Origin: a virus
DNA: 21,257 bases
IMG/VR virus record: IMGVR_UViG_3300047562_002936
Span: 1 to 21,257 of that record
Reading direction: 5' to 3' (one strand)
In this document: in pieces, positions 1 through 18,773 of the stretch
Numbering within the stretch: the first letter of the stretch is position 1
Layout: every line of letters starts with the position of its first letter
The notes under the pieces: generated by a model
What the model was told of the DNA's origin: nothing
The model's database searches: none
The model's input: the letters and a program-made list of their open reading frames with translations, nothing else
Made by a program: the position numbers and the translations under genes

Positions 1-1996
1 TAAAATTAGATGGGTTTATTTCTGAGGTTGGTAGACCACCATCACAAATACCGATAACGGTTGTAATACCGGTAATTGTTAATGAACTTTCGGAGACTGA
101 TTGAATTTTAGCAAATGTGCTTGTCGTGAATCCTGGATTTGAAAATGCTACCAAGTTTCCAACTGTAGCTACTCCAACAAAAATAATATCGGGTGAAGTT
201 ACAGTACTAACTCCAGCAGACTCTGCAGTAATATTTACTTCACCTAAAGATATTGAAGGTGATTGAATCGTATCTGCTGTAAAAGTGTATGCAGTTCCAA
301 CTATTCCATATAGTGACTTTACATCATTTATTCCATAAGAACGAACAGTTTTTGTTACTCTTGTGTTCTCTATACCATCAAAAATGAGCTTTTCACCTAA
401 TGAGAATTTTCCTTTAATATCATAGACTGTTAAAGTGTCACTAGCAGAAACGTCATATCTTAAGAATCCAACTGCACCACTTTCTTTACCTTTAATGTGT
501 GTTGGTGTACTTAATGTGATGGGTTCATTCAATACTAAGGTTGTGTATGTCTGAACATCATAGAGAGAAATATCCCACTGATTTTCATCTAGATTAGATG
601 TTGTATATGAACCAGACTCTAAAGCAAAATCATAAACTCTAGCCAAACCAATTTCACTTCCAGCAGCAGTTGTTTGAGACGTTCCAACTCTAGAATCTCG
701 CAAACTCAAGAAATAAGTTGTAGCAATTCCAACTACTGGTGAACCATAAACTCTGTTTAAAGTCAGTGATGGCCCAGTGAAGTAATTTAAACTTTGATTT
801 TCTAATGTTTTTGTTTCTCTTGGTTTGTTAAAATCTAAAAACTTAGGACTTACAGTTTCAATCTCATATCCTCGAACATATGCCTTGAATGGTGAAATTG
901 AATAAGTTCCCAGATTTTCATTCGGAACATTATTGTTATAAGTTAATTGATTTTCATTAAAAATACCATCATTTCCCAATAAGTCGTTTAAAGTCTCTTT
1001 TGGTTCTATGATTGGTGGAACTACATAATAATTTCCAGATTCATCATATGTTCTTCTAGCAAATTCTTGAGCAAGAACATTATATTGTGGAGTTGAAGTT
1101 ACATTATTCAACTTACCATTCACAATTTGCATCAATTCTACAAAATTGTCAGTATCTGTAGAATTTAAATCTATTTTTACTAAATTTGCCGTGATAGAAA
1201 ATCTATCTGCTCCAGGTGCTGCATAATTTGAAAATCCTTGAGCATTATCATTTAAATCTTCATTTTCAAATGAATTTATAATTTCTTCATCTATTCTAAG
1301 ACCAACTCTATAACTTGGAATATTAGAGTATGGTTCTAAGTAAAGTAAGTTAGAAAGTACATTTACAAAGCATCCTCTAAGGAAATATATCCCCTCATCT
1401 AGATAGACAGCAGAACCTATTGCAGTGCTGTTTTGTGATAATGTCGTTGCAAATCCTTCACCAGCCGCAAGAACTATAGTTGTTGGTTCTTCTTCTTCAT
1501 CACCAAGTAAAGATGTTGGGTCTGCTGCTTCAACATCTTCATCAATCAATAAATTTTCACCATCAAAGAATTTTGATTGTGAAGTGCTTTGACTTGACGA
1601 TGACAAATATCTTACATATAGTGTATTTTTTTCAACACCATCTCCTGCCTCAAGATAATCTTCAATAATTGCAGTAATTCCACTTACCTGTCCCTTTATT
1701 CTTACGTTCAATAAACTTCCGAAGTAATAATTTGAGGGAAGACCTTGATATGAATCTTCTACAATTACAGCATTTAAATCATTTCTATATGTTACATTAC
1801 CGGGAATTACAACAGAACCCTCTTTAAAAGTATGATTTCCAAACTGTTCAATTTGATTTTGAAGAATCGATTGTAAAGTTGTTAATTCTCTAGCCTGAAC
1901 TGGATATCCAGGCTTGAACAAAACTTTATAGTAATTATTATCGATGTCAAAGTCGTCATAATATGGAGAGACATTGAGGTTCGTTTCTTGTGGCAT
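1..1996 (-). CDS. DUF4815-type virion structural protein, C-terminus cut off by the window edge
   Basis: The frame is open from ATG 1996 to base 1, giving 664 complete codons. The N-terminus has the hallmark of the DUF4815 family of T4-like cyanophage virion proteins: LFKPGYPVQARELTTLQSIL (about residues 26-45) followed by NQIEQFGNHTFKEGSVV. Further family-like blocks are GIYFLRGCFV (near 210), NYAAPGADRFS (near 260), FARRTYDESGNYYV (near 315) and KAYVRGYEIET (near 372). Beyond about 450 the protein becomes a Gly/Ser/Thr-rich beta-type sequence like its neighbours. It starts 7 bases after the gp8 stop (TAAAGAATCATG) with no clear Shine-Dalgarno. Its position matches T4 genes 9 and 10, so a peripheral baseplate or fibre-attachment role is likely; that role is inferred. 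The family call is strong and the exact function is unknown. Confidence 0.85.
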   Translation of the reverse strand, partial: MPQETNLNVSPYYDDFDIDNNYYKVLFKPGYPVQARELTTLQSILQNQIEQFGNHTFKEGSVVIPGNVTYRNDLNAVIVEDSYQGLPSNYYFGSLLNVRIKGQVSGITAIIEDYLEAGDGVEKNTLYVRYLSSSSQSTSQSKFFDGENLLIDEDVEAADPTSLLGDEEEEPTTIVLAAGEGFATTLSQNSTAIGSAVYLDEGIYFLRGCFVNVLSNLLYLEPYSNIPSYRVGLRIDEEIINSFENEDLNDNAQGFSNYAAPGADRFSITANLVKIDLNSTDTDNFVELMQIVNGKLNNVTSTPQYNVLAQEFARRTYDESGNYYVVPPIIEPKETLNDLLGNDGIFNENQLTYNNNVPNENLGTYSISPFKAYVRGYEIETVSPKFLDFNKPRETKTLENQSLNYFTGPSLTLNRVYGSPVVGIATTYFLSLRDSRVGTSQTTAAGSEIGLARVYDFALESGSYTTSNLDENQWDISLYDVQTYTTLVLNEPITLSTPTHIKGKESGAVGFLRYDVSASDTLTVYDIKGKFSLGEKLIFDGIENTRVTKTVRSYGINDVKSLYGIVGTAYTFTADTIQSPSISLGEVNITAESAGVSTVTSPDIIFVGVATVGNLVAFSNPGFTTSTFAKIQSVSESSLTITGITTVIGICDGGLPTSEINPSNF

Positions 1997-2002
1997 GATT
2001 CT

Positions 2003-3556
2003 TTAGAACTGCAAAATAACTTTGATATCTTCCTTTTGATTGGCAGACCTTGTTATGGATGGTCTATTATCAACATAAATTATGTTTCCAGAATACTTTT
2101 TAACCTCTGGGTTTGACACACCATTCGTAAAAGTTTGTCCAAGGTAGTATGTTCTACTATTTATTTCTGTTGAAATACCAGTAAAACTTGTTTCTATTCC
2201 CAAGGTAACACTTCCACCAATAATATTCAGAGAACCACCGGTGCCTGGACTTGAGGTAAATCTATTAAGGTTGAAACCATAAGTTGGTGATGAATTTTGA
2301 GAACCATCTGTGTTAAATCCAACCAAAGATTTATCTTGCCAATATTTCAAAACTCCTGTTGCAGCATCATAAGATACAACTCTACCAACAGCAGTAGAAC
2401 CAACTCCAATTGTTTGAGTTATTCTAGAATCTGCTGTAAATGTTGCTGTACTATATCCAATTCCAGTTAACTTCAGTGCATAAACAGCACTTGCTTTATC
2501 TGAAGTTAATATGGTGCTAGAACCAAATGCTTCTGGATTTTCTATGATTCCAATTCTAGCAATTTGATTTCCTGTAATAAAATCTGGATTTTCTATATCA
2601 TTTTCAATTCTAGAGTAAACAAGGACATTATATGCTCCAAGTTCTCTATAAATGTCTGCACCATGCCCACCCTGTGGGGGAATTATTACATTAAATACTG
2701 GGGATGTTGAACCTGTTGGAACTCCTCCAGATACTAAATCTACAGTTCCATAGGTATATCCAGAACCACCGTTAGAAACGGTAACGGATTCTACTTTAGA
2801 ATCGTTATTGATTACGATTGTAGCTTCTGCACCAGAACCATCACCCTTAATTGGAACTCTAGTGTATGTTCTATTTGCAGTTCCAAGTCCAACACCACGA
2901 TTCGTAATGGTTACGATTTTTAATTGTCCACTTGTCGATGCATTATCTCTGACGGATGCATTTTCTGTACTAGTTTCCCAATCTTTAGGGACTGGTATAA
3001 AGTTTGTAGAGTCAAATTTTACAATATCACTTGGTTTAATTGTGTAGAGATATTTCCATACATAACCATCTCCACTATCACCAGCAACTCTAGGTTCTAA
3101 GTCTGTAAATGTTGGTTGGTCTAAGGATGGTTTTCCTGATGGATTTTCTGGGTCAGAACCATTCTGTAGGCAGATATAAACCTTATAATCCTCATTAATA
3201 ACATAATAATTTGCATTATATAAGTGAGTTGCACCAGAAGGTTTTGATGTATTTGTTCTACTTATATCATGTCTGTACATATCATATGTTGTTCCGGAAG
3301 TCCAAGTATTTTTCCGAACAACTTGCTTAATATCACCACTAGAAATTTTCTTCAACGCAATCATGGTATCCCAATAATCATCCTCCTGCTCAAAACTATC
3401 TTTTGGAGATGGAGGAGTGGTATCCCAAGTTGAACTATAATCTGTTGCATTTGGAAGTCCAACAAAAGCATAATAAGAATTTGTGTCTGATGTTGCCACA
3501 GACACAAAATTCTTTGCACTTAGAATTCTAAATTGGTCAGTTATAATTGCAGACAT
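2003..3556 (-). CDS. gp8: baseplate wedge protein gp8, with a large insertion
   Basis: This is the homologue of T4 gp8, a baseplate wedge component (517 aa here, 334 aa in T4). The conserved parts flank an insertion. GDGYVWKYLYTIKP (residues 162-175) matches T4 GDGYVWEYLFEIPP. GNQIARIGIIENP (329-341) resembles T4 GFRQISIITNP. The C-terminus, SGNIIYVDNRPSI to KVILQF, matches T4 GEMIYMENRPPI to NILFTF. The N-terminal ITDQFRILSAKNF also resembles the T4 start. Residues about 212-290 are a glycine-rich repeat (GDGSGAEATIVINN, then VSNGGSGY) absent from T4 gp8 but abundant in the giant protein next door. A second extra stretch lies at about 345-480. The start at 3556 follows an A-rich leader (AAAAAACCGCAAAATG) without a Shine-Dalgarno. 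Position after the gp7-like gene follows T4 order. Identification is confident. Confidence 0.92.
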   Translation of the reverse strand: MSAIITDQFRILSAKNFVSVATSDTNSYYAFVGLPNATDYSSTWDTTPPSPKDSFEQEDDYWDTMIALKKISSGDIKQVVRKNTWTSGTTYDMYRHDISRTNTSKPSGATHLYNANYYVINEDYKVYICLQNGSDPENPSGKPSLDQPTFTDLEPRVAGDSGDGYVWKYLYTIKPSDIVKFDSTNFIPVPKDWETSTENASVRDNASTSGQLKIVTITNRGVGLGTANRTYTRVPIKGDGSGAEATIVINNDSKVESVTVSNGGSGYTYGTVDLVSGGVPTGSTSPVFNVIIPPQGGHGADIYRELGAYNVLVYSRIENDIENPDFITGNQIARIGIIENPEAFGSSTILTSDKASAVYALKLTGIGYSTATFTADSRITQTIGVGSTAVGRVVSYDAATGVLKYWQDKSLVGFNTDGSQNSSPTYGFNLNRFTSSPGTGGSLNIIGGSVTLGIETSFTGISTEINSRTYYLGQTFTNGVSNPEVKKYSGNIIYVDNRPSITRSANQKEDIKVILQF

Positions 3557-3572
3557 TTTGCGGTTTTTTATT

Positions 3573-3580
3573 TATTTATT
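3573..3580 (-). promoter_or_regulatory. possible T4-type late promoter element (AATAAATA) before gp8
   Basis: The minus strand reads CTAATAAATAAATAAAA between the giant gene and gp8, and AATAAATA matches the T4 late -10 element TATAAATA at 7 of 8 bases. It overlaps the stop codon of the giant gene. The expected start site would leave only about ten bases before the gp8 ATG, and the tract is simple A/T sequence, so chance similarity is quite possible. Confidence 0.3.
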
Positions 3581-6500
3581 AGTTATAATTTAGATATTTA
3601 AGTGGATTCACTCTTCTCACAATTGGTGCTGTTGAAATTCCAACTAATCCATTATTTGAGAGTGTGAATGACTTTGGTGTGGCTCTGCTATCAGATTCAA
3701 TTCTTCCCCAACTATATTCACCGAAGAAAGAACTATAACCAATACCAGAGAGACCATTATAATCAGAAACACTCACAGTAACTTGAGCAACATAAGTCAG
3801 ACCAATACCAACAGCATCAGTCTGTGCAATTGATACTGCAGCAACCTCATAAACATTATCGATGTAAGAAGAACCAATTGAAAGGTTTGAACCATTACTG
3901 TACAGAGATGTTAATCCATTTCCAACATTTGAGTTGAATACAACAAAATAATAACCAGTTTGAATTCCACTTACAGTAATTCCAGTACCAACTATTGTAG
4001 AATCTCTTAAGAAAGAGTTTTCTGGAATAATCAAGTCAAAAACTAGTCCAGTAGATGCAACCCCAACAGAAACCGTTGAAATTCCCGAGACAATACCAAA
4101 ATCACCTGAGTAGTTTACATTAGAAATTTCTTCGGTAGTTGGTGATGGTTCTTCTATAAGAACAACTGGTGGATTTGTATTTGTATATCCAGTTCCAGGT
4201 GATGATACTGATATTGAAGATACAGTTCCTCCAACTGAGATGTTTGCGGAAGCCGTTGCTCTTTGAGTTGACCCAAGACCAACTGGATTGGAGATAGTTA
4301 CCTCTGGATTTGTTGAATATCCAACACCACCATTAGAAATTATCACTGAGGAGATAGTACCAGCTGCAGATACTAAAGCAGTTGCAGCAGCAGAAACTAT
4401 GGTATCTTGTGAGATAATTTCAATCTTAGTTCTAAATGCTTCGGTAACATTTTCTTTTTCACTATCAAAGAATGTTTTCAAACTCTCCACAAAAATTACA
4501 GTTGAACCAACACCAACACTTTGAATTATGTTCGTAGATGGTTGAATGAGTGGTTCGTAGATTGTTCTGTCCTTAGAAACTTCCTTTCCATCGATGAACA
4601 AGTCCTCAGTTTGTCTGCACCAGATTAATGGTCTCTCAAGATTGGAATTTTGAGTAATTCCTGGTCCTGGATACACATTTGTATTGATAGTGTCTACCGA
4701 AACAACCTCCGTTACAATTCTATCATTCTGCTTCAGGGAAAGTTGCTCACTATCAAGTCTAACGAGGTCTCCAATCTTTATGGTCTCCAAAATATCAACT
4801 TCACGAACATCAACATCACCAGTTCCCTTATAAAATACAATCTTGCAGGTGTCCCCAACTTTTGGAGCTTCGGTGAATGTTATATTACTTCCACCATTAA
4901 AGATATATCCTTGACCGGGAACTTGTAAAATATCATTTAAGAATACAATAAGGGTTGACTGAACATCAATTGATGAACCAGGTTTTGCTTTAATAGACTT
5001 CTGCTCACCATTAAAGAATAATGGGAACGAAACTCTAATACCATCAAACAGAGAATCTATTGGGTCAAATACTTCCAAGTCACCAATAGTCCATCCACTG
5101 AAACTATCACTATCAGTTCTTTCTATAGAAATTTGGAATTCTGAGAATGATAGTGAAGTATTTGTAGGAATGCCAACCGTTCCTCCAATTGATACTGTCA
5201 GAACTTCCCCTTGTCCATATCCATAACCAAGATTTTTTATTTCAAAATCAATTACACTAGAACCTTGTCCAACAACGATATCAACAGTAGCCTCTGTTCC
5301 AAATCCAGATACTGATGATGAACTATAAATCAGTGGAATATCATTATACGAAAGAGGTTCATCAAATACAACTATTGGTGGATTTGTGGAGGTATAACCA
5401 ACTCCTGGATTTGTGATTGCAACACTTACGATATTTCCACCACTAATAGCAGCAGTTCCGATAAATTCGATATTTGGAGTTCCAGTGCTAGAAGTTGCAA
5501 CTCCAACATTTACTACTGTCTGAACTCCTTCTCTATATCCAGAACCACTATTTCCAATACTGATTGATTGGATTGTTCCGGATGCAGACACAACTGCAGT
5601 GCCACCAGCAGCAACTAAAGGTTGATATCCAAAACCAGATGTTGAACCGACAGAAACTATAATTCCACCAACAGGGACATTGGAAGAATTTACATCATAT
5701 AAAGCGGAAGTTGCAGTTCCAGTAAACTGTACACTAGTAATACCAACACTCTCTACGAGAGTATAATTTGATTGGTCTTCAACTGTGGATGAAATATTCT
5801 TTTGTCTTGGAACTTGGAAAATCTCATTAATTAATATAATAGCATTTCCAGTTGAAATTCCAGATATGTCAGTGCTATTAGACTTAAGTGTAAATTCAGT
5901 TCTAATGCCAGTAAATGACTGTGATATGTCATCAAAGATATAGTTCTTAGAATATGTTTCGGATGTGCTATTTTCTACACCAGACCTTATAAAGGTTCTA
6001 CCACTAAAAGTAGAATGTGTAGTAATTCCAGTCCAATCTCTTTGATTTGGAGTATTTGAAGATGTTCCAATTGGAACTGGTCCATATGGAGCTGTTATAA
6101 AGTTAATTGTATTATCAACAATATTATAATTTCCATTAACCTTAGTCACCAATGAATATTGTGCATGAGTTGCCAGTCCAGTTCCCATCCAAGACCTTTC
6201 AACAAGAAGAACATTAGTGCTTCCAAATCCAACAGAATTTACTCTTACTATTTCATCATTAATCTTAAGAAGATCTCCACCAAATATTGAAGTTATTCCA
6301 ACCAAAGAAATTGTATCATCTATTGTTAAAATTTCTAAATCATTACTTGTTGTTACGGCAGTCGATACAACTGGTGATTGTATTACATTATCAATTGAAA
6401 TGAGTGTTTTTGCATTTTGATTCTTTGCAGTAAATGTATGCAAAGTACCTATTCCAACAGATGTAATGTCTAATGCAATTGGTAAAGTCTTAAGTGCATT

Positions 6501-9500
6501 TTCAGCACTGGAAGCAAGTTTAATATTCAAATCATCAACTTTAATTGCATAGACTGAAGATGGAAGTTTGTCTGTAGTTCCAATTCCAACAAATGATGTT
6601 GAAGCAATACCAATAGACTGTGTTGTTCCAGCTCCTGCATTTGAATAAACAAGTTCTTCACCAGTTACGAAGAAGTGACCTGGAATTCTAATTGTATCCT
6701 CAGAAACATTTACTATTGATGAATTATTACCTTCAAAGTTTCTTTCAAAAATTGGCAGTTGTTTATGAGTGAGATTAAATTGTCTTCTAACATCAGTAAA
6801 TGTTCCTCTATATTCTCCATGTCCAGTGTCTATTGAACCACTTTCCAAGTCAATAACAGTATCTGATAAGTCAGTATCGACAACTCGCATAGCATTTTGG
6901 AATACTCTTACTTCAACATCAATATTTGCAACTGGAGTAAAATAAAGTTGAACATTAGAACCTGTAATTCCAGCTCCAACAGTTCCCAGTCCAGATTGAG
7001 TAAATATTTCACCAAATTCAACAATAGAAGCTTGAGTTCCATCATCAACAACTACAACTTCGGACATTTGAGTTGCATTATTTGTCATGTCATTAACTGA
7101 CACGATGTAGTATGATGCATTGTAATTTGAATTATTATATTCAAATACAGTATTTTGTACTGGAGAAGTTGATGATGCGATTGATGTGTAACTCGACTCT
7201 AACAATCCAGTGTTGAGAACCTGAGTTCCTATTCCAGTTGAAGATGTATCTCCAATAGAAACTCTCAGTGTATTAATTACATAAGAAACTCCAACTCCAA
7301 CATATGGGGTGAAGTTCAAATTGACATTAGAACCCGAGAATGCTGCTCCATAGGTTCCTAAACCAACTATTGAGTATGATGATGAACTATCATCTGTGAG
7401 TTGTCCATAGTCAATAATTTCTATATTAGTTCCATCATGAACTATAGAAATTTCATCGAATTCGTAGTAAGAATCATCAGTAGCGGCAATAGAGACTAAA
7501 ACTTTAGATGAAGTATATGTAGAGGCAATTCCTACTAATGTAGTTTCTCCAGTAGTTCCAGATGGAATTATTTGATTGGATGTTTGAATATCTACAACAT
7601 CACCCAAAGTGGTTGTTCCAACACCTGCTATTGCGTCCTCCAAGTTATAAGAGACGTAACTAACGTCAAAATTATTAACCTCATAATCTACTGGGTAGAA
7701 TAAAAGGTTTCCTTCATCTCCAGAGATGGAAACATCAAATGAACCCATGTTATTTACTGTCTGGATTCTTCCATATTGGTTAATATAGACAGAGCTATCA
7801 TTATGTAAGATTGATACCAGGTATAACTGCCTCTCTGCAGTAAATCTTCTATCTTTTACATATGTTATGAATTTTCTAATTCTTCCAGAATCTAATCTAA
7901 ATCTATCTACCACACTAAATGGAGTGGATCTTGGATTGCTGTTAAATTCTTCACTAATATCATCAATCAGCAATACTCGGTTTCCAATAGACTCAAAATA
8001 GTCTTGAAGTGTTGTGGAACCAAGTACAATTTCATCAGAGACTACATTTGAATCTATTGTCAAAGTCCTTTCAGTTGCTAAATCGAAATCACTAACACAA
8101 TTAAATCCAGTTAGACTAACCAAATCTGCTATTCCCGAAAAATCACCAAGGTTCTGCTCTGTAGAAATTCCAGTGAAATCTTGACCAGAAGACTCTACAA
8201 CCAAATCACTAAATTTCTTAAATCCAGCAGTATGGTTTGTTGCATCAACAACATCGTCCCATTTTTCCAACTCAACTTTAGACTTGATAGAATATGAGAA
8301 ATATTGATAGTAATCACTATCGTGTATTCTTTGGAAGTTATTATTTAAGAATCCTCTTTCAGTTTCCCAACCCTTTCTAACAATAGATGATGCTGAAGTA
8401 TTGTATAGTGCATTATATTCTTCGACAAAAGAAATAATAGCTTGAGAACCTGAAGAAGATGCTGTTATCTTTTGACTCTGCTCAAATGTATCTTCACTAA
8501 GAACTTTAAGTATTTCGTTTAAAGAATCCCATTCATTAATCGTTCCAATAGCACCATTAGATGAAACCAATTCGTCATTAAAGAATTGATTTTTTTCTAA
8601 AGTTATATCAAAAATTGGGAAGAATTTTTCTGGTGTTACTCTACCAGAAGAATAAGTCAAACTAAAGGTTCCAGGATCTTCATTTTCATCCAAGTATTCT
8701 GACAAATTATAAGTTATTGTCCCATTAGCACCACCAATATTTGGATCTATTGAGGTTAAAGTGAATAAAGCATAGTCATATGCAGATGAATTGTATCCTC
8801 TTAAGGTAGTTGCAGTACCAACACTTGTATTTTCAATAAGAACTTTATCACCAACTGCAAAAGGATAATCACTTATGTTGCTATAACTTACTGCCAATCC
8901 AACCGTAACATTCTTGGTAACACTGTTAAATGTTATTGAATTAATCCCAATACCATTTGAATTATTCGTTGGAATTATCAGTGGAGTCTTATTATTAATA
9001 CCCTTAGTATTCTTTAGAATAGTAACAGCACTATCTCCGATGTTATATGAAAGATTTACATCATCAATTACTTCATTCGTAACTGAATCTATAACAATGA
9101 GATTTGGAGATATTGTATAATTTTTTCCAACTGATGATATTCCAATATTTTTGAAAGTGGATAATGTAGACACCTTCAAAATTTGAGGAAGTTTTGCCGT
9201 TGGTCTTAAAGTTTTATCTGCGGAATATTCAAATCCAATATCTTCAATTTCAGTTGAAAGAATATTTCCAATTGAGTCTGAAGATGGTACTAATAATGTA
9301 CCAGATCCAGTCGAAGAATATACTGAAGATATTCCTGGTAAAGAATCGTACATCTTACCACCAGAAATAATATTAAAGTCATTGATTTCACCAAATGCAG
9401 ATAGTGAATTGGTGGTATAAGATAATTTTGCTTCAGTCGAAAGATATGACGATCTTTCTGGTTGGATTGGTATATTATATGAAAAAGTATTAGTTGTGAT

Positions 9501-12500
9501 TCCAGAAATTGAATAAATTCCAGAATAAGAACTATCTACTACATCAATTCTGTTATTAGATTGTACATTTTCATTATCAACAATTATCTGTAAATTCTCT
9601 TGGTCATTTTCATCTATGTTAACTGGTTCTAATCCATAATATATTACACTAGGAATATTATTCGACACACTTAAAGTCAACTTAGCTGTTGTACTAACTC
9701 CAATAGTACCACTTCTAGAAATTTCAAATCCACCAAAACCAGAAGTTTCAAAAATATTTTTTAAATTTTCATCACTATAAAGATTAAAATCAAATGCTGG
9801 ATATCTTATAGAATTTTTTAAATAAGACAATGAATTGTCAGATAAGTCGAAGATAATCGATTGATTCTTAGTCGCAACAATTGGTGGATTAACTAACGAT
9901 AATGTTCCAGATGATGCGCTCGTTAAATCGATAACAACAGGAATTCTTAGAGTTGCGTTATAATAGGTTTCTGCAAGTTTGAATGTATTGTCATCTATAA
10001 CAACAATATAATAAATTCCATTATTAACAAGACCACCAGATGGAGAAGATGAAGTGTGAATTACTTTTTGTCCATTCGTATAACCATGAGATGTTAATGT
10101 GATTGAATCCGTTGAAGTGTTGACATCTCCAGATAAGAAGTCTTTTGGATTTACAACCAACCTACGGTTATATTCATTATACTTTAAAGTATATGTTGTT
10201 GATATTCCAGATGAGCAATCAACAGAAACAGAATCTTTAACATTAAGTCCATGAGTTGATGCTGTAGATACTGTAACAAGATTTTTATTTACCTTTCCAG
10301 TAATTACATCATCATAACTTGTTTGGAAGCTATGAATTACGCCTGTACCTTCGTTAGTAAAATAGAGAATATCTGTAAATACGCTACTATTAATTCCTAC
10401 AAAGTTTCCAGTGGAACCCAAACCAACTCTATTGGTTGCAATACCAATCAAATCATTTGTAATTCTTGCGGCATATACAATTTGATTTTCTGTGAGTTGG
10501 AAAGATGATGACCCATCAGTTGAAACTGAAATTGCAGTATCACCACCAGAAGAATAGACTAACTTATCACCAGTATTCAAATTGTGATTTGGCAGATAAA
10601 TTGATCTAGTAGGAATGAACAAAGAACTAACACCAACACCAGGATTTGAGAAACTTAAGGTTGACCCAATTCCAACACCAGATGTAGTTCCCAATCCAAC
10701 AGATTCTACTGGGTTGAAGTAAATTTGAGTATTATACTTATATGGGAATAGTGTTGTAGTTAATCCTACGGTAAAAGTAAATTTCCTAGATTGCTCATAA
10801 AGAATAGAAGCTACTGTATGAGATGAACCGACAGTGCCATCATACTCTCTTAAAACTCTTATTCTTCCGGATGGTTGATCAATATTTAATACCTTTACCT
10901 TTTCAGAATCTATCTCAAATACATCATTCTCTCTAATAAATGGATAATTTAGTTGCCCAGAAACACTAAAATATGTAACTATGCCAGTTACTGAAGTGGA
11001 ACCAATCCCAGAATTGAGTGAGAAATTATCAGATCTAACACCAATATTATAAAAACCATTCAATTCTGTACCAAAAGTGCTTATTCCACTAATCTTAACT
11101 AAGTCAAGATTTAGCAGATTGTGTGTGGAAGTTGAAAATGCTACAAAACTTGAATTTCCAGTAAGGGGGACAAATTCAACATTTGATAGTGATGTGCTAT
11201 TGACCGAAATTTGATTTACTAACTTTCCTTTTACTGAAGATACCTTTACAGATGCTCCTTGCCCACCTGTTCCTTGATTATTAAAAATTACTACATCATT
11301 AACTTTATAATCCAATCCTCCAGTTACAATTCCAATAGAGTCTAACGAACCCTTCTTAGTATTTCTGATAACTGAAGTTTGTTTTCTTATTTTATTTGAA
11401 TCTACTATAAAGTCATATCCACTTCTTTGGTTGAGTAAATTATATGGAGTAGTATTTCTCAGCAAGTCAACTTGATTCAAATCAACAGAATCTTGATTGG
11501 AACTAGTGCTAAAATTATAATCTATTGGTTTTGATTTAAATTCATTTCCAATAAAATATGGGAAGACTGGTTTTCTATAATTTCTAAGAGGTCCAGAAGA
11601 CTCTACACTAAAACCATTAATTGTAGAAAAATATGCATAAACTCCATTTGGATATTCTGGAGTTACACAGAATCTTCCATTATATTGGTCGAGGTCTCCA
11701 GACGCATTATACTGATAGTCTTCTACAAAAAATCCTTCTGGATAAAGTGAAGTTCTTGGTCTACCAGACTCAACAGAAACTTTATATCCAGATTCTAAAG
11801 CCTTTACAGAACCTCCTGTAATCGTTGAATATCCATATGGACCATAAATTGGATTTCCATCATATGCCCATCCAATAATAGGAGAGTGTGAATCTGAAAG
11901 TGCTTCTCTATTATTCTGAATTACTAAGTCTGGTGAAAATACTGTCGTACCATTAATTAATTTCTTAGTAGTAATGGTCTGTCTTAATTTTCTTGGAGCA
12001 TAGAGATGTGTATATTGCAGTCCATAATCCGAATTAATTCCATTATCAATAACTCCATCATCATCGGAAATTAATTCACTCTGAAGATTTCTTTCAACTA
12101 AGTTAATTGTCCATGTCTTTGGAACAGATTGTAAATTAGCACCAGAACCTGCAGGGACAACATTTATGATTGTTCTTGAGGTCTCAAATCCAACTCCACC
12201 ATAAACAACCTTAACTTCTGAAAGGGAACCATTTACTATAACAGGAGTTAATTCTGCACCATAACCATTCCCGATAATTTCAAATGATGGTGGAGAATTA
12301 TACTCTCTTCCTGAGTTAGTAACTAAAACTTCAGAAATAGCACCATTAGATATTACTGGAATTACTTCAGCTCCAGTTCCACTATTCAAATTAAATGTTG
12401 GTTGTCTGTTGAAGTTTATTACCTCTTCTGAACCATAATTTGAACCACCAGATTCTAAGAATACTGACTTAATTTGACCTCTTACAATTGGTTGAGCTAT

Positions 12501-15500
12501 TGCGTTAAAGTCTTGATTTGTTCTTGTAGATACTCCTACAATTCCAGATACATTTACAACTATTGGTTCATAATTGAATTGATGATATCCAGAACCTACA
12601 GAAGTTAAATCTACATATTGATTTGACTTAAAGTAAAAATCTACAGTTGTTGTAACTCCAACCACTGCAGAACCAACACCTACCGTAGAAGCAACACCTA
12701 CTTTAGATAACTTAAATGAGTCACTATCCAGTGCTGTGACGTAGTAAGATTGTCCATCAACCAAACCACCAACTACACTACCTGTAGTATTGTATACTAT
12801 TATTTCTCCAGTGCTGTAATTATGATTTTTGGCAAAAATTGTATTTGATGCTGTATTAATCCCAGATGATGGTATAGAAATCTTTCTATTCTTATATCCA
12901 CTTCCCTTGTCGTAGACATTTATGTAGGATATCTTCTTCTTAATATTTGAAGAAGCAAATCTATGAACTCCAGTTCCATATGAAGTAAGATTGATTGTGT
13001 TTATGCCAGCTGCTGCATCTTCATATGTTTTATGAAGTTTGACGGTAAAGGAATCTTGTACAGAAACATAATAAGAAGAATCTGTTGATATTCCCCCAAC
13101 TGCTTGCTGTCCATCTGGTTTGTAGATTATTCTTTCAGCATCCCTAAACTTATGATATGAAGAAAATCCAATTGTATCATTGGTTAAATCAACCAATCCA
13201 GAAGACTCGATTGCATTAAAAGACACTGAATGTTCAAAAGAGAATAACTCTGCCTTAGCTTTTGCTCCACTACCACCACCACCAGATATAGTTACGATAG
13301 GTTCGGAAATATAGTCAAATCCACCATCGATGATGTTAATTTTTTCTACTTGACCATGAACTTCACAATATCCAGTTGCTCCAGTTCCAACACTATCTGT
13401 TATTGATAAGGTTGGTGGATTTATTACATCATAGTTACTTCCTTCCGAAAGAACATTTATTTCTTCAAGTGGACCGTAGAAAATTTTATCCTTTGACTTA
13501 TAATTTAAAATTTCTACACCATTTACGAGAATTCCAATTTGTCCAAATTTAGTTTCGTGAGAATTATCTGTATTCTCTGGATTTTGTATTTTTCTTACTA
13601 ACTTTTGAGTGTCGAGAGTTTGATATGCAAATTCACTAAAAATTAACTGACTGTTTGTTACAGTTCCAGAAAGGTTTATATAATTTCCTTTGTAAATATT
13701 TTCTCTACTACGAGATAATTTAATGGTGAGTGGGTCAACTCTTTTTACATAATAAGTTCCTTCAGTTATGTTTAAAGAATTTGATTCCGATTCTGGTCTG
13801 TAAATTACAGAATCTCCAGTGTAGAAATAATGTCTTCCGATTGTTAAATTTTCACCACTGAATGTTCCAGAGAAAGTTATTTCTCTGTTTCTTATTCCAA
13901 GTGATTCTCCAAGATATGATGGAAGTGAAGGTGAAGTTACATAGTAAGAACCCAACTGGTCAGTGTAGACATTTTGAACATTAGTTGAGTAATTTGATGC
14001 TTCTGGGAAGTTTGTATAACTTCCTTTTGATAATACTTTTTGTATCTTATCTTTTTTAGTAATATCAATTATTCCTTGACCACTTACAGTAAAGGTTTTT
14101 TCATTTAAAACTGATAATATACTAGTATTAATATCAGTTCCATCACTGAGAATAAGTTTTACAGAGTCTCCTCTATAGAAATTGTGATTATCGTATACTC
14201 TTATCTGATAGGTAAAATTAGAAATATCAACTAAACTAATTGAATCTATATCATATTTCGATGCAACATTATAAATCCAATTATTCGATTTAATATCCGA
14301 AGAGTCTTCTCCTAAAGTTTTAATTACAATTTTATTTCCAGGATTGTAATATCTCGCACCATCATCAATTTTTAACTCAGATAATACACCAGTTACTCTA
14401 AGTTTTACTACATTATCTGTTCCAATTCCAGAATATCCATATGCATACGAATTAATTCTAACATTCTGACCAGATGATAAGTTTTGGGTTATTCCAGAAC
14501 ATCCATAAAACTGAGTATATGATTTTGATTCGTAAGAAATTGTTACTGAAGTTCCATTTTCCAAATCAGCAACGATTTCACCAGAACTCGGAAATCCAAC
14601 AGTTGAATCAACATCCAAAACTGTAGATCCAATTGAAGCCTCGGTTATTATTTTAGTCTGGGGATGAACAGAAAACTCACCAGAAACCGAACCCCTTACA
14701 CTAATATCTTTATTGTAATCATAATCTAAACTAATTACATGATATTCATTATCACCTCTGAATATTTTTTCAATCTTGTTTATTGATCCAAATGCTTGAT
14801 TGAAATTTTCATATTGGTCCTGATATAATGTTCTATTTTCCAAGTCCTCAGGATTACCCTCAAGTGCTTCAACAACTAAGTCTTTTGTGATTCTATACTG
14901 AGCATCTGAGGGAATAAACAGATAATCTCTTGGCTTAATGACTTCAACATCTTCACCATACAAGGCTCTAAAAAGAATCTCGAAAGATTGGTCTGTTCCT
15001 TTAGATGAATAAAAATCTTTAGACTGCTTTATAAACAGATTTGCATTTAAATCTGAATCAAATTCTCTATCTTCAAACCCAGGAACAAGTTGTCTCTTTA
15101 CCTTCTTATAAAACTCTTTTAAAAATAAAACACTCAGATTTAAAACCAAAGAATCTGTATCATGTTCTACGATTTCTGAGGTAGAAAATACTAAATGATC
15201 TGGTTTGTTTTTATCTTGATATGAAGTGACTCCACTAAATCCACGTACACATCCATTAAAAGCAGTTTCGGTCTTTGAAGTATATGTGATGATTTCCGAG
15301 TCAATCTGTATAATTCCATAGGAATCTGGAAATCCAGAAGTGGATACTACATTAATTGTATCATCGGAAAATCCTATAGATGAAGTTGTACTGGTAGAAT
15401 CGGTAAGATTTGTAAGTTGTTCTACTTTAATATACTTGTCAATATTTTGAAGAATATCAAGAACAGCACCTTGATTTTCTACAGATGTGTAATATTGGGA

Positions 15501-15593
15501 TAAAAACTCTCCGACTAATGGAAAATCTTCCCTAACGAAAGCTGGGAGTTGATTTTCAACAACTGAACTAATCTTGATTCGAGTGTCTACCAT
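3579..15593 (-). CDS. giant (4004 aa) gp7-like baseplate wedge protein built of beta repeats
   Basis: One uninterrupted frame lies between gp6 and gp8, exactly where T4 has gene 7. Residues about 16-57 and 150-245 resemble the C-terminal helical region of T4 gp7; the key match is DFYSSKGTDQSFEILFRALY (193-212), followed by GEDVEV. A small beta insertion (about 66-125, GFPDSYGIIQIDSEIITY then NGCVRGFSG) splits this match. The rest is Gly/Ser/Thr-rich beta sequence. It includes about six copies of an NH..TGD..VY...YYV..D..FKL module (near 586, 811, 921, 1668, 1833 and 2971). It also has GSGY-type repeats (755-780, 1038-1154, 3321-3404, 3731-3814) and a YHYH-like module (1190-1340, with GWAYDGNPIYGPYGYS). 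Further elements are a NHTAGFKKF motif near 2447, a duplicated block (2700-2775 and 2820-2900) and LIVFLNDILQVPG near 3540. The C-terminus ends PLKYLNYN. T4 gp7 is 1032 aa, so this is about four times larger. Being structural is near certain; gp7 identity is inferred from order and the N-terminal motif. The start is 4 bases after the gp6 stop, without a Shine-Dalgarno. Confidence 0.85.
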   Translation of the reverse strand: MVDTRIKISSVVENQLPAFVREDFPLVGEFLSQYYTSVENQGAVLDILQNIDKYIKVEQLTNLTDSTSTTSSIGFSDDTINVVSTSGFPDSYGIIQIDSEIITYTSKTETAFNGCVRGFSGVTSYQDKNKPDHLVFSTSEIVEHDTDSLVLNLSVLFLKEFYKKVKRQLVPGFEDREFDSDLNANLFIKQSKDFYSSKGTDQSFEILFRALYGEDVEVIKPRDYLFIPSDAQYRITKDLVVEALEGNPEDLENRTLYQDQYENFNQAFGSINKIEKIFRGDNEYHVISLDYDYNKDISVRGSVSGEFSVHPQTKIITEASIGSTVLDVDSTVGFPSSGEIVADLENGTSVTISYESKSYTQFYGCSGITQNLSSGQNVRINSYAYGYSGIGTDNVVKLRVTGVLSELKIDDGARYYNPGNKIVIKTLGEDSSDIKSNNWIYNVASKYDIDSISLVDISNFTYQIRVYDNHNFYRGDSVKLILSDGTDINTSILSVLNEKTFTVSGQGIIDITKKDKIQKVLSKGSYTNFPEASNYSTNVQNVYTDQLGSYYVTSPSLPSYLGESLGIRNREITFSGTFSGENLTIGRHYFYTGDSVIYRPESESNSLNITEGTYYVKRVDPLTIKLSRSRENIYKGNYINLSGTVTNSQLIFSEFAYQTLDTQKLVRKIQNPENTDNSHETKFGQIGILVNGVEILNYKSKDKIFYGPLEEINVLSEGSNYDVINPPTLSITDSVGTGATGYCEVHGQVEKINIIDGGFDYISEPIVTISGGGGSGAKAKAELFSFEHSVSFNAIESSGLVDLTNDTIGFSSYHKFRDAERIIYKPDGQQAVGGISTDSSYYVSVQDSFTVKLHKTYEDAAAGINTINLTSYGTGVHRFASSNIKKKISYINVYDKGSGYKNRKISIPSSGINTASNTIFAKNHNYSTGEIIVYNTTGSVVGGLVDGQSYYVTALDSDSFKLSKVGVASTVGVGSAVVGVTTTVDFYFKSNQYVDLTSVGSGYHQFNYEPIVVNVSGIVGVSTRTNQDFNAIAQPIVRGQIKSVFLESGGSNYGSEEVINFNRQPTFNLNSGTGAEVIPVISNGAISEVLVTNSGREYNSPPSFEIIGNGYGAELTPVIVNGSLSEVKVVYGGVGFETSRTIINVVPAGSGANLQSVPKTWTINLVERNLQSELISDDDGVIDNGINSDYGLQYTHLYAPRKLRQTITTKKLINGTTVFSPDLVIQNNREALSDSHSPIIGWAYDGNPIYGPYGYSTITGGSVKALESGYKVSVESGRPRTSLYPEGFFVEDYQYNASGDLDQYNGRFCVTPEYPNGVYAYFSTINGFSVESSGPLRNYRKPVFPYFIGNEFKSKPIDYNFSTSSNQDSVDLNQVDLLRNTTPYNLLNQRSGYDFIVDSNKIRKQTSVIRNTKKGSLDSIGIVTGGLDYKVNDVVIFNNQGTGGQGASVKVSSVKGKLVNQISVNSTSLSNVEFVPLTGNSSFVAFSTSTHNLLNLDLVKISGISTFGTELNGFYNIGVRSDNFSLNSGIGSTSVTGIVTYFSVSGQLNYPFIRENDVFEIDSEKVKVLNIDQPSGRIRVLREYDGTVGSSHTVASILYEQSRKFTFTVGLTTTLFPYKYNTQIYFNPVESVGLGTTSGVGIGSTLSFSNPGVGVSSLFIPTRSIYLPNHNLNTGDKLVYSSGGDTAISVSTDGSSSFQLTENQIVYAARITNDLIGIATNRVGLGSTGNFVGINSSVFTDILYFTNEGTGVIHSFQTSYDDVITGKVNKNLVTVSTASTHGLNVKDSVSVDCSSGISTTYTLKYNEYNRRLVVNPKDFLSGDVNTSTDSITLTSHGYTNGQKVIHTSSSPSGGLVNNGIYYIVVIDDNTFKLAETYYNATLRIPVVIDLTSASSGTLSLVNPPIVATKNQSIIFDLSDNSLSYLKNSIRYPAFDFNLYSDENLKNIFETSGFGGFEISRSGTIGVSTTAKLTLSVSNNIPSVIYYGLEPVNIDENDQENLQIIVDNENVQSNNRIDVVDSSYSGIYSISGITTNTFSYNIPIQPERSSYLSTEAKLSYTTNSLSAFGEINDFNIISGGKMYDSLPGISSVYSSTGSGTLLVPSSDSIGNILSTEIEDIGFEYSADKTLRPTAKLPQILKVSTLSTFKNIGISSVGKNYTISPNLIVIDSVTNEVIDDVNLSYNIGDSAVTILKNTKGINNKTPLIIPTNNSNGIGINSITFNSVTKNVTVGLAVSYSNISDYPFAVGDKVLIENTSVGTATTLRGYNSSAYDYALFTLTSIDPNIGGANGTITYNLSEYLDENEDPGTFSLTYSSGRVTPEKFFPIFDITLEKNQFFNDELVSSNGAIGTINEWDSLNEILKVLSEDTFEQSQKITASSSGSQAIISFVEEYNALYNTSASSIVRKGWETERGFLNNNFQRIHDSDYYQYFSYSIKSKVELEKWDDVVDATNHTAGFKKFSDLVVESSGQDFTGISTEQNLGDFSGIADLVSLTGFNCVSDFDLATERTLTIDSNVVSDEIVLGSTTLQDYFESIGNRVLLIDDISEEFNSNPRSTPFSVVDRFRLDSGRIRKFITYVKDRRFTAERQLYLVSILHNDSSVYINQYGRIQTVNNMGSFDVSISGDEGNLLFYPVDYEVNNFDVSYVSYNLEDAIAGVGTTTLGDVVDIQTSNQIIPSGTTGETTLVGIASTYTSSKVLVSIAATDDSYYEFDEISIVHDGTNIEIIDYGQLTDDSSSSYSIVGLGTYGAAFSGSNVNLNFTPYVGVGVSYVINTLRVSIGDTSSTGIGTQVLNTGLLESSYTSIASSTSPVQNTVFEYNNSNYNASYYIVSVNDMTNNATQMSEVVVVDDGTQASIVEFGEIFTQSGLGTVGAGITGSNVQLYFTPVANIDVEVRVFQNAMRVVDTDLSDTVIDLESGSIDTGHGEYRGTFTDVRRQFNLTHKQLPIFERNFEGNNSSIVNVSEDTIRIPGHFFVTGEELVYSNAGAGTTQSIGIASTSFVGIGTTDKLPSSVYAIKVDDLNIKLASSAENALKTLPIALDITSVGIGTLHTFTAKNQNAKTLISIDNVIQSPVVSTAVTTSNDLEILTIDDTISLVGITSIFGGDLLKINDEIVRVNSVGFGSTNVLLVERSWMGTGLATHAQYSLVTKVNGNYNIVDNTINFITAPYGPVPIGTSSNTPNQRDWTGITTHSTFSGRTFIRSGVENSTSETYSKNYIFDDISQSFTGIRTEFTLKSNSTDISGISTGNAIILINEIFQVPRQKNISSTVEDQSNYTLVESVGITSVQFTGTATSALYDVNSSNVPVGGIIVSVGSTSGFGYQPLVAAGGTAVVSASGTIQSISIGNSGSGYREGVQTVVNVGVATSSTGTPNIEFIGTAAISGGNIVSVAITNPGVGYTSTNPPIVVFDEPLSYNDIPLIYSSSSVSGFGTEATVDIVVGQGSSVIDFEIKNLGYGYGQGEVLTVSIGGTVGIPTNTSLSFSEFQISIERTDSDSFSGWTIGDLEVFDPIDSLFDGIRVSFPLFFNGEQKSIKAKPGSSIDVQSTLIVFLNDILQVPGQGYIFNGGSNITFTEAPKVGDTCKIVFYKGTGDVDVREVDILETIKIGDLVRLDSEQLSLKQNDRIVTEVVSVDTINTNVYPGPGITQNSNLERPLIWCRQTEDLFIDGKEVSKDRTIYEPLIQPSTNIIQSVGVGSTVIFVESLKTFFDSEKENVTEAFRTKIEIISQDTIVSAAATALVSAAGTISSVIISNGGVGYSTNPEVTISNPVGLGSTQRATASANISVGGTVSSISVSSPGTGYTNTNPPVVLIEEPSPTTEEISNVNYSGDFGIVSGISTVSVGVASTGLVFDLIIPENSFLRDSTIVGTGITVSGIQTGYYFVVFNSNVGNGLTSLYSNGSNLSIGSSYIDNVYEVAAVSIAQTDAVGIGLTYVAQVTVSVSDYNGLSGIGYSSFFGEYSWGRIESDSRATPKSFTLSNNGLVGISTAPIVRRVNPLKYLNYN

Positions 15594-15597
15594 GTCT

Positions 15598-17511
15598 TTA
15601 TTGTCTTATACGGCTTCCGTTTGTGTAACTTGTTGTTGGGTCATAGTATGAACCAGAGATATCGGAACCTGAGGAAATTTCATCCGACTTCATATTTAAA
15701 ATACTCTTACTAATATCTAGTTGCAAATAAAGATCCTGTTTTCCAATAACATCATTTGAGATTGGAATTGCAGAAATTTCAATTATTGGATTTCCATTAT
15801 TGTTTTTGGAAGTTCCAACTATATTAATTGGGTTTAAAATAATTTCTCCTTTTTCATAACTTATAGTTCCAACTGACCTTCTTTTAATAGTTGGTGTATC
15901 TGAATTTGGGTCTGAGAATAGGAAAATGGTTCCAGTTAAACCGTCTGTATTTGGCAAATCTCCGAGATATACTGTGCCATCAATTCCACTGACGGTAAAT
16001 CCTGAAGACTTTATATTATATCCTTCAACACTCTTTATATAAAAACCATTTCCATAACAAATTTCATATTCAGCTAACTGATTTAATATTACACCTAAAT
16101 CTCTTCTGATTTGAACTTTAGTAATATTTGATGTGATAGATTCGTGACTATCATCTACAATTTTTTGGAATTTGCTATATTTAAACTTTGCACCATATCT
16201 GTTCAGTTCTGACGAATCTGCATATGAGTTTATGTTAGAAGAAACTATACTCTTTACAAAGTCCGCATCTGGTGCCAAGTTGGTATTGTAATATGCTGTG
16301 GTATCAACTTCCACATAAATGTACTTCAAGTCTATAATTTCGGGAACAATTCCAGCAACACTATAATTTCTTAATTTATTTTTTAAATTATCCTTGATGC
16401 TGTTAGGAACAAATTGTCCATTATAAGGTTTTATGCTAATAAAAACTCTTCCGTATTGTGGTGGAGATAAAGTCTCACCTCCATATACTGAAACGGATTG
16501 AGTTTCGGGATAAATTTGAGGAACTATTGTCTCATAGTCTGCTGCAGTAACTGCTCTATTCTGAGATGCATAAATTCTTGGCGCATAATTTTTAATAGAG
16601 TCTACTGATTCAATCTCTTTTCCACCTTCCGATGCTATATTTGTGGTAATGAGTGAAATTCCATTTGTTACCGAAATTCCGTTATTATCAAGCAATCTTC
16701 CATTAAAGGTAAAAGAAGATAATCCATTCGCAGACTCACCACTGGTTACAATGTATGAAGCTTCGATATAATTTAATGCTTGTAATTTCTCACCAAAAAT
16801 ACCATCACCAAAAATAAGTTCATATCTTTGATCTTCAACCTCTTGTATAAAGAATACTCTAGATGATGAAGTAACAGAGAATAAACTATTCGACTGTACA
16901 AATTTTCTTGAATTTGTACTTGATTCAGTATCTCTTACAATAACATTAATTGAAGAACTATCAATATTTGGATTATTTAAGATATATTTCTGAGGTGGTG
17001 CTGGATTTTCTGATTGTACAGTAAAATTGTCAACAACATAAGTTCCTTCATATACTGATATATTATCAAAAAATGCAATTCCATTTACAACTGGAACAGT
17101 AATATTACTTGGAACTGTAAATGTATAACTTTCTCCACCAAATGCTGCTGTTGTCGCAACAACTCCCTTCTGAAGAGTTAATGTAATTGGGTTAGTTTGA
17201 AATCCTGTAGTATCTACGAAAAAAGAAATATTTGCTTTTGCTGCTGTTCTAGACCTTGGAACATATCCAATGTTTCTTGCAAGAGAAACTACGTTTTCTC
17301 TTAATGTCGCACTATCAATAAAAACCTCATTGCTAACCATGTTAGCATTATATGAGGAAATATATGTATTATATGCTAAAGTGTCTATGAGAACGGATAA
17401 GTTAGACCCCTCAAAATCGTAGTCAGTAAAATTTGAATTCGATCTAAGGTAATCCTTAATCGAAGTTTTTATCTGGTCGAAGTCTAAATTCGTAAAATTA
17501 ACTAATGGCAT
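15598..17511 (-). CDS. gp6: baseplate wedge protein gp6 (baseplate J-like)
   Basis: This is the homologue of T4 gp6, which forms the inner ring of the baseplate wedge (637 aa here, about 660 in T4). The N-terminus shows the conserved gp6 signature: NFTNLDFDQIKTSIKDYLRS, DYDFEGSNLSVLIDTLAYNT, then VFIDSATLRENVVSLARNIG (within residues 5-83). The central part has the IFGDGIFGEKL loop near 232. The baseplate-J-type motif SQNRAVTAADYETIVPQIYP lies near 320, followed by YGRVFISIKP. The start ATG overlaps the gp25 stop by one base (TAATG), so translation is probably coupled, which fits the missing Shine-Dalgarno. Order gp25-gp6-(gp7)-gp8 matches T4-like phages. No anomaly in length or frame. Identification is very secure. 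Confidence 0.97.
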   Translation of the reverse strand: MPLVNFTNLDFDQIKTSIKDYLRSNSNFTDYDFEGSNLSVLIDTLAYNTYISSYNANMVSNEVFIDSATLRENVVSLARNIGYVPRSRTAAKANISFFVDTTGFQTNPITLTLQKGVVATTAAFGGESYTFTVPSNITVPVVNGIAFFDNISVYEGTYVVDNFTVQSENPAPPQKYILNNPNIDSSSINVIVRDTESSTNSRKFVQSNSLFSVTSSSRVFFIQEVEDQRYELIFGDGIFGEKLQALNYIEASYIVTSGESANGLSSFTFNGRLLDNNGISVTNGISLITTNIASEGGKEIESVDSIKNYAPRIYASQNRAVTAADYETIVPQIYPETQSVSVYGGETLSPPQYGRVFISIKPYNGQFVPNSIKDNLKNKLRNYSVAGIVPEIIDLKYIYVEVDTTAYYNTNLAPDADFVKSIVSSNINSYADSSELNRYGAKFKYSKFQKIVDDSHESITSNITKVQIRRDLGVILNQLAEYEICYGNGFYIKSVEGYNIKSSGFTVSGIDGTVYLGDLPNTDGLTGTIFLFSDPNSDTPTIKRRSVGTISYEKGEIILNPINIVGTSKNNNGNPIIEISAIPISNDVIGKQDLYLQLDISKSILNMKSDEISSGSDISGSYYDPTTSYTNGSRIRQ

Positions 17512-17912
17512 TATCGTGTTGGCTGTAATGCGAATGATAACTGTTGTGGTAATGCATCAATACCAACAATATAATAATTGATGGTTACATTAAATTCATT
17601 ATTATCATAGTTTGCTGCAACTTTTACATCAATTAATTCAACTCTTGGTTCATAGTTATTAATGGTATTTTCAATCTCATCTCTAATAATAGATGCTGAA
17701 ATATCATCAATGTTCTCAAATAATGATCTAGAAACTCTAGAACCAAGATTTTCATTAAAAAATCTTTCACCTGGAAGGGTAAACACAAGATTTCTTACTG
17801 ATCTAGCTATTGCTGTCTCATTTTTAATCGCAATCATGTCAGAATTCAGAGGATTAATCTGAAATGACATGCTGAGATCTTTAAATTCTTTGCTTACCCG
17901 TTGTACAGGCAT
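17511..17912 (-). CDS. gp25: baseplate wedge protein gp25 (lysozyme-like/TssE fold)
   Basis: This is the homologue of T4 gp25 (133 aa here, 132 in T4), the small wedge protein that links the gp6 ring to the sheath and is related to TssE of type VI secretion. Visible hallmarks are NLVFTLPGERFFNENLGSRV (residues 41-60), SRSLFENID, and the conserved EPR motif in NNYEPRVELIDV (85-96), which in this family contacts the core bundle. Despite the historical lysozyme label, it is a structural protein. It begins the late baseplate block: a GATAAATA late-promoter motif lies about 22 bases upstream, and no Shine-Dalgarno is visible. Its stop overlaps the gp6 start by one base. Very secure. Confidence 0.97.
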   Translation of the reverse strand: MPVQRVSKEFKDLSMSFQINPLNSDMIAIKNETAIARSVRNLVFTLPGERFFNENLGSRVSRSLFENIDDISASIIRDEIENTINNYEPRVELIDVKVAANYDNNEFNVTINYYIVGIDALPQQLSFALQPTR

Positions 17913-17932
17913 GTAAAAGTGATAAATCTATC

Positions 17933-18100: not shown

Positions 18101-18109
18101 TTTTAGCTC

Positions 18110-18127
18110 CTGATTGGTTAAAATCAG
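18110..18127 (-). promoter_or_regulatory. stem-loop abutting the ribosome-binding site of the 55-aa gene
   Basis: CTGATT-TTAACC-AATCAG is a perfect 6-bp inverted repeat with a 6-base loop. The GGAG Shine-Dalgarno begins within its last base (AATCAGGAGCTAAAAATG). It lies in the 33-base gap between the 205-aa gene and the 55-aa gene. It could tune initiation or protect a processed 3' end. There is no following U tract, so it does not look like an intrinsic terminator. Confidence 0.4.
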
Positions 18128-18133
18128 AACTTT

Positions 18134-18751: not shown

Positions 18752-18773
18752 TCAAGACTTATAACTCTATGAA

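Follow-up and report, generated by a model that had tools for sequence, protein, structure and literature searches.

A 4,004-residue protein supported as the gp7 of a T4-like cyanophage baseplate, with three shared blocks and three added regions

T4 gp7 is present in one copy per baseplate wedge, where it is paired with two gp6 subunits. It comprises 1,032 amino acids (aa) (phrog_964; PDB 5HX2 and 5IV5), with an N-terminal part of about 640 aa that gives a weak fn3 match at its start and with Pfam domains V and VI further on. Here we analyse a possible counterpart encoded by the IMG/VR virus record IMGVR_UViG_3300047562_002936, a stretch of 21,257 bases that we call the window and to which all gene searches of the source phage were confined. 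An open reading frame (ORF) at 3579..15593 on the minus strand begins with ATG, contains no internal stop and encodes a protein of 4,004 aa (433 kDa), hereafter the giant. Our data support the giant as the gp7 of a T4-like cyanophage baseplate. We assign a probability of about 0.85 to the reading that it is the gp7 wedge subunit, built on a three-block scaffold in T4 order to which regions have been added that would decorate the wedge on the outside and hold a YHYH module.

Two other contractile systems can be likened to this one in wedge role by published description only; here and below, publications are cited for those parts of their text that were available. The wedge of A-1(L) is described as (gp31)2-gp32 with an N-terminal helical bundle, gp32 being small. 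The gp7-like part of AlgoCIS Alg12 is reported as laterally exposed on the baseplate and in contact with the tail fibres and is called an evolutionary and re-engineering hotspot; its authors speculate that the core bundles relay movement to the gp25-like protein. Among marine cyanophages, the T4-like ones have been called the most abundant and widespread (PMC10665884). Sullivan et al. (2010, PMC3037559) group gp7, gp10 and gp12 as divergent genes within the non-cyanophage core, and a paper of 2020 states that gp7 is absent from cyanophage and pelagimyophage baseplates, seemingly replaced by VrlC (PMC7029224). Both agree with an earlier reading of this DNA from its letters alone (the sequence-only reading), according to which gp7 is not usually counted as a cyanophage core gene. 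Relatives of the giant, however, are already deposited as gp7 in the S-SM2 and P-HM1 records, as 'similar to gp7' in P-SSM3 and as baseplate wedge initiator in Bellamy (gene 111). Because the databases already carry the gp7 label, the finding is less new than it looks. New are the collinear layout with three insertions, the bridge proteins and a loss of histidines; in addition, a statement in print and a database label are corrected. In the literature we searched, as far as its text was available, no description of the three-insertion layout or of the histidine loss was found.

Sequence and gene-order evidence for gp7

Residues 185-218 of the giant align with residues 725-758 of T4 gp7 with 47% identity over 34 columns (pairwise E 1.9e-9). 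This is the resemblance between DFYSSKG...LYGEDVEV and DFYSTKG...LYNEEVEI of T4 that the sequence-only reading had picked out by eye, and it proved to be real. The match extends over residues 185-290 (T4 725-814) when a profile of the cyanophage N-terminal part is compared with a T4-type gp7 profile by hhalign. The pairwise E-value was then 1e-10, and all 40 column-shuffled controls gave 0.077 or more, the best being 0.077 (all hhalign E-values given here are single-pair values). A search of 177,635 distinct PDB sequences with the N-terminal profile returned two gp7 sequences at the top (E 0.0036 and 0.0058), followed by the next entry at 0.82; the same two are the only sequences matched by T4 gp7 itself at E ≤ 0.001. 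The underlying alignment (alignment A1, distinct from block A1 described below) holds 54 rows, the window and 53 others, drawn from 145 loci, each 345 aa or longer, after removal of rows at least 85% identical; it includes an IMG/VR copy of S-PM2, and 68 of the 80 S-PM2-type loci (L101-L180) were used.

The distribution of the match within phage records points in the same direction. Using a profile derived from T4-like gp7 alone, a single match per record was obtained in nine of ten cyanophage records, always in the giant (E 1.1e-7 to 0.0063); the weakest were those of P-HM1 (E 0.0038) and ME01 (E 0.0063), and the S-PM2 record gave no match. The core of block A2 was found at E ≤ 1 in the giant only, in 10 of 10 cyanophage records. 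Seven matches to other ORFs, in P-HM1, S-SM1, P-SSM3, ACG-2014d, S-SSM6a and S-CAM7, fall in model positions 52-126, which is the insert region. By tblastn, the N-terminal 251 aa matched 469 of 50,697 phage records, among them 373 named Synechococcus and 61 named Cyanophage; gp6 matched 2,365 records, likewise with 373 Synechococcus and 61 Cyanophage (the counts are equal; the records were not matched up). Residues 1-251 score 27.4 bits against PF23786 (Baseplate_wedge), just above the cut-off of 27.

The neighbouring genes, identified by Pfam and PHROG, place the giant between gp6 and gp8, the position of gene 7 in T4, as the sequence-only reading had stated:

17511..17912, minus strand: gp25, baseplate wedge (PF04965, E 1.6e-14)
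15598..17511, minus strand: gp6, baseplate wedge (PF21379, E 1.4e-17; phrog_219)
3579..15593, minus strand: the giant, supported as gp7 (best PHROG family phrog_2885, 'baseplate wedge subunit', E=0, best stretch residues 1-3372)
2003..3556, minus strand: gp8, baseplate wedge (PF09215, E 5.6e-16; phrog_438)
2..1996, minus strand: DUF4815 or 'VrlC' protein (PF16075, E 1.9e-31; phrog_358), truncated by the window end

The resulting order is gp25, gp6, giant, gp8, VrlC/DUF4815. If gp7 were absent and replaced by VrlC, as asserted in PMC7029224, the giant would be an unrelated structural protein. However, VrlC is a different gene that lies after gp8, and the ORF at 2..1996 has the position of the VrlC gene in P-HM1 and S-SM2. 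The gp7 core sits in the giant, and also in gp055 of Pelagibacter phage HTVC008M, while the HTVC008M VrlC does not match the hidden Markov models (HMMs) of the blocks at E ≤ 1. We regard replacement by VrlC as very improbable. Profile-profile comparison, the PDB profile search, the ranking by Foldseek (below), the gene order and the finding that no other gp7 core is present in ten cyanophage records together uphold the giant as gp7. With an A2 match, a block B after A2 and a position between gp6 and gp8, it belongs to the PF23786-type gp7 core family. The full gp7 architecture of T4-type phages (Straboviridae) is not found in it; because neither the Pfam models of T4 gp7 nor T4 residues 1-640 find a match, the giant is not filed as a narrow T4-type gp7.

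Three collinear blocks and three added regions

Comparison of the giant with its relatives divides it as follows (the YHYH domain inside I2 is listed in the next section):

15414..15593, minus strand: core block A1, residues 1-60, helical, presumed core-bundle helix, HMM matches
15147..15413, minus strand: insertion I1, residues 61-149, beta-rich domain
14706..15146, minus strand: core block A2, residues 150-296, with the FYxxKG...LFRALYG motif at 185-218, aligned to T4 gp7 725-758 / 725-814, present in 10 of 10 giants
8379..14705, minus strand: insertion I2, residues 297-2405, about 2,110 aa where T4 gp7 has about 100 aa, its Pfam domain V
8178..8378, minus strand: core block B, residues 2406-2472 (DSDYYQYFSYSIKS...NHTAGF), by hhalign and HMM
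3582..8177, minus strand: extension I3, residues 2473-4004, about 1,530 aa

In all ten giants, the present one and nine named ones, A1, A2, the YHYH domain and B follow one another in identical order. Since the block HMMs were built on alignments that hold some or all of the ten giants, their matches in giants are partly by construction; the proteins of T4, Desulfovibrio phage 7757, Variovorax phage V45v66 and HTVC008M stood outside these alignments. The alignment of the A1 HMM contained seven of the giants and none of the Desulfovibrio, Variovorax and HTVC008M proteins, and this HMM matches all ten giants and these three proteins as well. Desulfovibrio phage 7757 (587 aa), Variovorax phage V45v66 (498 aa) and HTVC008M gp055 (1,016 aa) thus have short gp7-like proteins with A1, A2 and B in the same order; unlike the giant, they give no YHYH match, the first two are without I1, and I2 is short.

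The Desulfovibrio protein appears to link the T4 and the giant forms. With T4 it aligns over residues 644-896 (hhalign E 1.6e-7; by blastp over 645-888, E 9.5e-9), and with the giant over residues 1-277 (hhalign E 3.7e-11); these three E-values are without shuffled controls. Its residues 187-292 align to block B with E 2.9e-17. The sequence-only reading had also paired a helix at residues 16-57 with one at about T4 661-675. A direct comparison of the two gives no significant match; the alignment follows only through the Desulfovibrio protein, because this protein matches both T4 644-896 and giant residues 1-277. For block B, the HMM matches T4 861-890 with E 3.5e-5 in a set of nine proteins.

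Thus, T4 residues of about 644-690 (through the Desulfovibrio protein), 725-758 and 861-890 are collinear with giant residues 1-60, 150-296 and 2406-2472. A permuted gp7, as proposed in the sequence-only reading, could be assumed from the place of the most obvious match, which lies towards the C-terminus of T4 gp7 but towards the N-terminus of the giant. The claim of a changed order does not hold: A1, A2 and B stand in T4 order, because block B aligns to the Desulfovibrio protein and to T4 and its HMM finds T4 861-890, and T4 gp7 1-640 gave nothing significant anywhere in the giant or in the nine others (hmmsearch best E 0.099 in the set of ten giants; hhalign best E 0.26). We consider a permutation extremely improbable. 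In the PF23786 model, A2 (positions 178-226) and B (234-281) are adjacent, and they are about 2,100 residues apart in the giant; T4 domain V can be aligned both to residues 235-290 and to about 2339-2390. The enlargement over T4 gp7 was correctly given as about fourfold in terms of length, but only about 270 residues belong to the shared blocks.

Several results weigh against this identification or its details. Compared directly, residues 1-60 match T4 with an E-value of 0.36 and at another place, without significance. Block B against T4 782-893 is weak by hhalign (E 6.7e-4, probability 27%; best of 30 shuffles 0.089), and its register on T4 taken from three full-length giants only is not significant (E 0.64). 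The full-length protein scores 21.6 bits against PF23786, under the cut-off, and the Pfam models Gp7_helical, Gp7_5th and Gp7_6th of T4 gp7 do not match the giant at E ≤ 1. An AlphaFold model of residues 1-345 is poor (mean predicted local distance difference test, pLDDT, 63.5; predicted template modelling score, pTM, 0.37), with the core helices least certain. Moreover, the roles that we propose for about 3,700 residues outside the blocks are inferred.

With this model, Foldseek ranks T4 gp7 chains first and second among 350,542 (E 2.4e-3 and 2.6e-2, both above 1e-3; template modelling score 0.15); because the model is poor, the superposition on T4 gp7 envisaged in the sequence-only reading failed. 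T4 gp7 is not among the 50 rows returned by VIA-align, which mostly cover residues 62-156; here, residues 61-156 resemble domains of other phage virion proteins (Z 10-11). Whole-protein phmmer against PDB gave nothing at E ≤ 1 and NCBIfam nothing at E ≤ 0.1. A putative resemblance to P2 gpI or pyocin TriB was not reflected in the Pfam matches of the giant, as no such family occurs among them at E ≤ 1.

The giant shares its family and layout with other cyanophage proteins (phrog_2885, phrog_4406 and phrog_701), including Bellamy gene 111, S-SM2 gp7, P-HM1 gp7 and the P-SSM3 protein; that of Bellamy is 48% identical over the whole length. These proteins differ in length and in the sizes of I1, I2 and I3, with 1,942 aa in ME01, 3,007 in S-SSM6a, 3,048 in S-PM2, 4,004 in the window, 4,067 in Bellamy, 4,156 in S-SM2, 4,446 in P-HM1, 6,180 in S-SM1, 6,817 in ACG-2014d and 7,312 in P-SSM3 (covered over 7,089 of its 7,312 aa). 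The A1-A2 spacing is about 90 aa here and about 600 in S-SM1, P-SSM3 and ACG-2014d. The A2-B spacing is about 2,110 residues here, compared with about 1,500 in both ME01 and S-PM2, about 2,640 in S-SM1 and about 470 in HTVC008M; measured between HMM matches, it is about 60 in the Desulfovibrio and about 205 in the Variovorax protein. After B, 44 aa follow in ME01 and about 2,700 in S-SM1. Judged by these comparisons, the giant grew at three places: in the A1-A2 interval, in the A2-B interval and on the C-terminal side of B. Self-comparison of the giant yielded 15 off-diagonal matches, with one module recurring near residues 575, 800, 910, 1820 and 2960 and another near 2575, 2700 and 2840.

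The added regions could also be explained by a fusion, in which a small gp7 is joined to functional counterparts of gp10, gp11 and gp12, so that the extra parts replace separate proteins. The grouping of gp7, gp10 and gp12 as divergent non-cyanophage core by Sullivan and co-workers would fit this, as would the size of I2 and I3, which far exceeds that of any T4 gp7 domain. On the other hand, the PHROG families of T4 gp9, gp10, gp11 and gp12 (E ≤ 0.1) have none in common with the seven of the giant, Pfam shows only YHYH and Baseplate_wedge in it, and lengths ranging from 1,942 to 7,312 aa are unlike fused essential subunits. We therefore judge a fusion unlikely, while gp10-gp12 may have been replaced functionally without sequence similarity.

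A degenerate YHYH domain in the second insertion

The one Pfam domain other than Baseplate_wedge that was recognized in the giant lies in I2:

11544..12026, minus strand: degenerate YHYH domain, residues 1190-1350 (Pfam match 1224-1325; PF14240, 82.9 bits, E 3.7e-23, cut-off 25)

Each of the ten cyanophage records searched has the domain in its giant, and none was found in the T4, Variovorax or Desulfovibrio phage records searched. Its profile match to the YHYH family is clear, and three near-invariant histidines of the family are missing. Of 80 bacterial rows, 78, 79 and 79 have them, compared with 0, 0 and 0 of 66 phage rows, the latter made up of 57 rows of alignment A2 (not block A2) and nine named giants. 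The bacterial set is biased, as its 80 of 88 stretches found were picked for DGFPIYGPYGY. Phage and bacterial rows were both picked by patterns containing the Asp-Gly-x-Pro-x-Tyr-Gly motif, and the constancy of this motif is uninformative because the rows were picked by it. An alignment-free search found an upstream YHYH-like motif in 67 of the 80 bacterial rows and in none of the 66 phage rows. The histidine of the HSP motif is retained in every phage row (66/66) and in 56 of the 80 from bacteria. The loss is not a clean one, as 37 of 66 phage rows carry a histidine where the third residue of YHYH would be, and the predicted metal site may be shifted in the phage copies.

In jumbo phages, YHYH domains have been predicted to be tail-associated metal hydrolases (PMC7824862). 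If the domain were active as a metal-dependent hydrolase and assisted passage through the cell wall, this would agree with that prediction, with the occurrence of the domain in all ten cyanophage giants and with the conserved HSP histidine. Against it stand the distribution of the three histidines and the 588-aa ORF following the giant in ACG-2014d, a stand-alone YHYH protein whose YHYH histidines are intact. Because the three near-invariant histidines are absent from the phage rows, we consider a metal-hydrolase function unlikely for the copy in the giant, and enzymatic activity in cell wall breaching distinctly more doubtful than the fusion discussed above. Most likely, judging from these alignments, the domain is a binding or structural module. 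An AlphaFold model of residues 1031-1490 was poor (pLDDT 62.9, pTM 0.47) and its best PDB match had an E-value of 1.1, so the domain is left without a fold assignment.

Proposed role in the wedge, related labels and further observations

By analogy with T4 and other contractile systems, A1 would join two gp6 helices in the core bundle of the wedge, A2 and gp6 would form the ring-connecting unit, and B would pack against these. So arranged, the scaffold would hold the wedge together and pass movement to gp25 and the sheath. I1, I2 and I3 would, for the most part, be beta-rich and decorative, projecting outward from the wedge to build the outer baseplate and to bear or place fibres and surfaces for host contact, and the YHYH domain in I2 would act there as a binding or structural module.

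A broader and more tentative idea, to which we give somewhat less than even odds, is that gp7 of marine T4-like phages is a growth platform, in which a constant scaffold was enlarged at three insertion sites from about 500 to 7,300 residues. It would have taken over the outer baseplate from the periphery of T4-type gp7, possibly also from gp10-gp12, and a YHYH enzyme that had lost its activity would have been co-opted as a module for binding. If this holds, the giant is among the largest virion parts and a main determinant of host contact. The block definitions provide a testable gp7 for cyanophages and pelagimyophages, contradict the replacement of gp7 by VrlC, correct a 'head closure Hc2' label and reveal the places at which thousands of residues can be added to the T4 wedge scaffold.

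The label concerned is that of HTVC008M gp055 (33435-36485), which is also placed in PHROG 3465, a family that bears this same name; it carries A1, A2 and B, sits between gp6 and gp8 and is probably the pelagimyophage gp7. Two HTVC008M genes (44145-46025 and 46673-49735) of three labelled 'baseplate wedge initiator' have no match to the gp7 block HMMs at E ≤ 1. PHM1_095 of P-HM1 (12325-19602) was considered as a second gp7 and rejected, since it was not matched in the record searches and reached at most 1.6 bits with the block HMMs; it carries a laminin-G/ConA-like domain, and its gp7 label is probably wrong. In Proteus phage PM2, gp7 is annotated as two adjacent ORFs (1109-4218).

Published work adds virion evidence. 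The S-SM1 giant is annotated as T4-GC969, a cluster to which PMC3037559 ascribes a structural protein of the virion. For a 6,619-aa 'baseplate wedge initiator' of S-SZBM1, 71 peptides are reported (PMC9146016); from its name and size, we infer that it is a homologue of the giant. ORF122 of S-CREM2, by its position the putative gp7, is represented by 91 unique peptides (PMC10665884).

Rfam and tRNA scans of the window gave no matches. An ORF at 19061-19828 belongs to phrog_1574 and has weak glycosyltransferase similarity; the stretch between 19061 and about 20350 has matches of 76-82% identity at the DNA level in 18 phage records, which exceeds the count for the baseplate genes. A 57-bp piece at 18096-18152 has an identical copy in Synechococcus phage DSL-LC02 and is found, whole or in part, in 10 Synechococcus phage records in all, at varying loci. 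It is without an Rfam match and its folding is unexceptional (z -0.74). The piece consists of an ORF end (..GIATP stop), an inverted repeat (CTGATT/AATCAG) whose end overlaps AGGAG, and then an ATG. This pattern fits at least 120 IMG/VR stretches, and one loop is common to 41 of the 80 matches examined.

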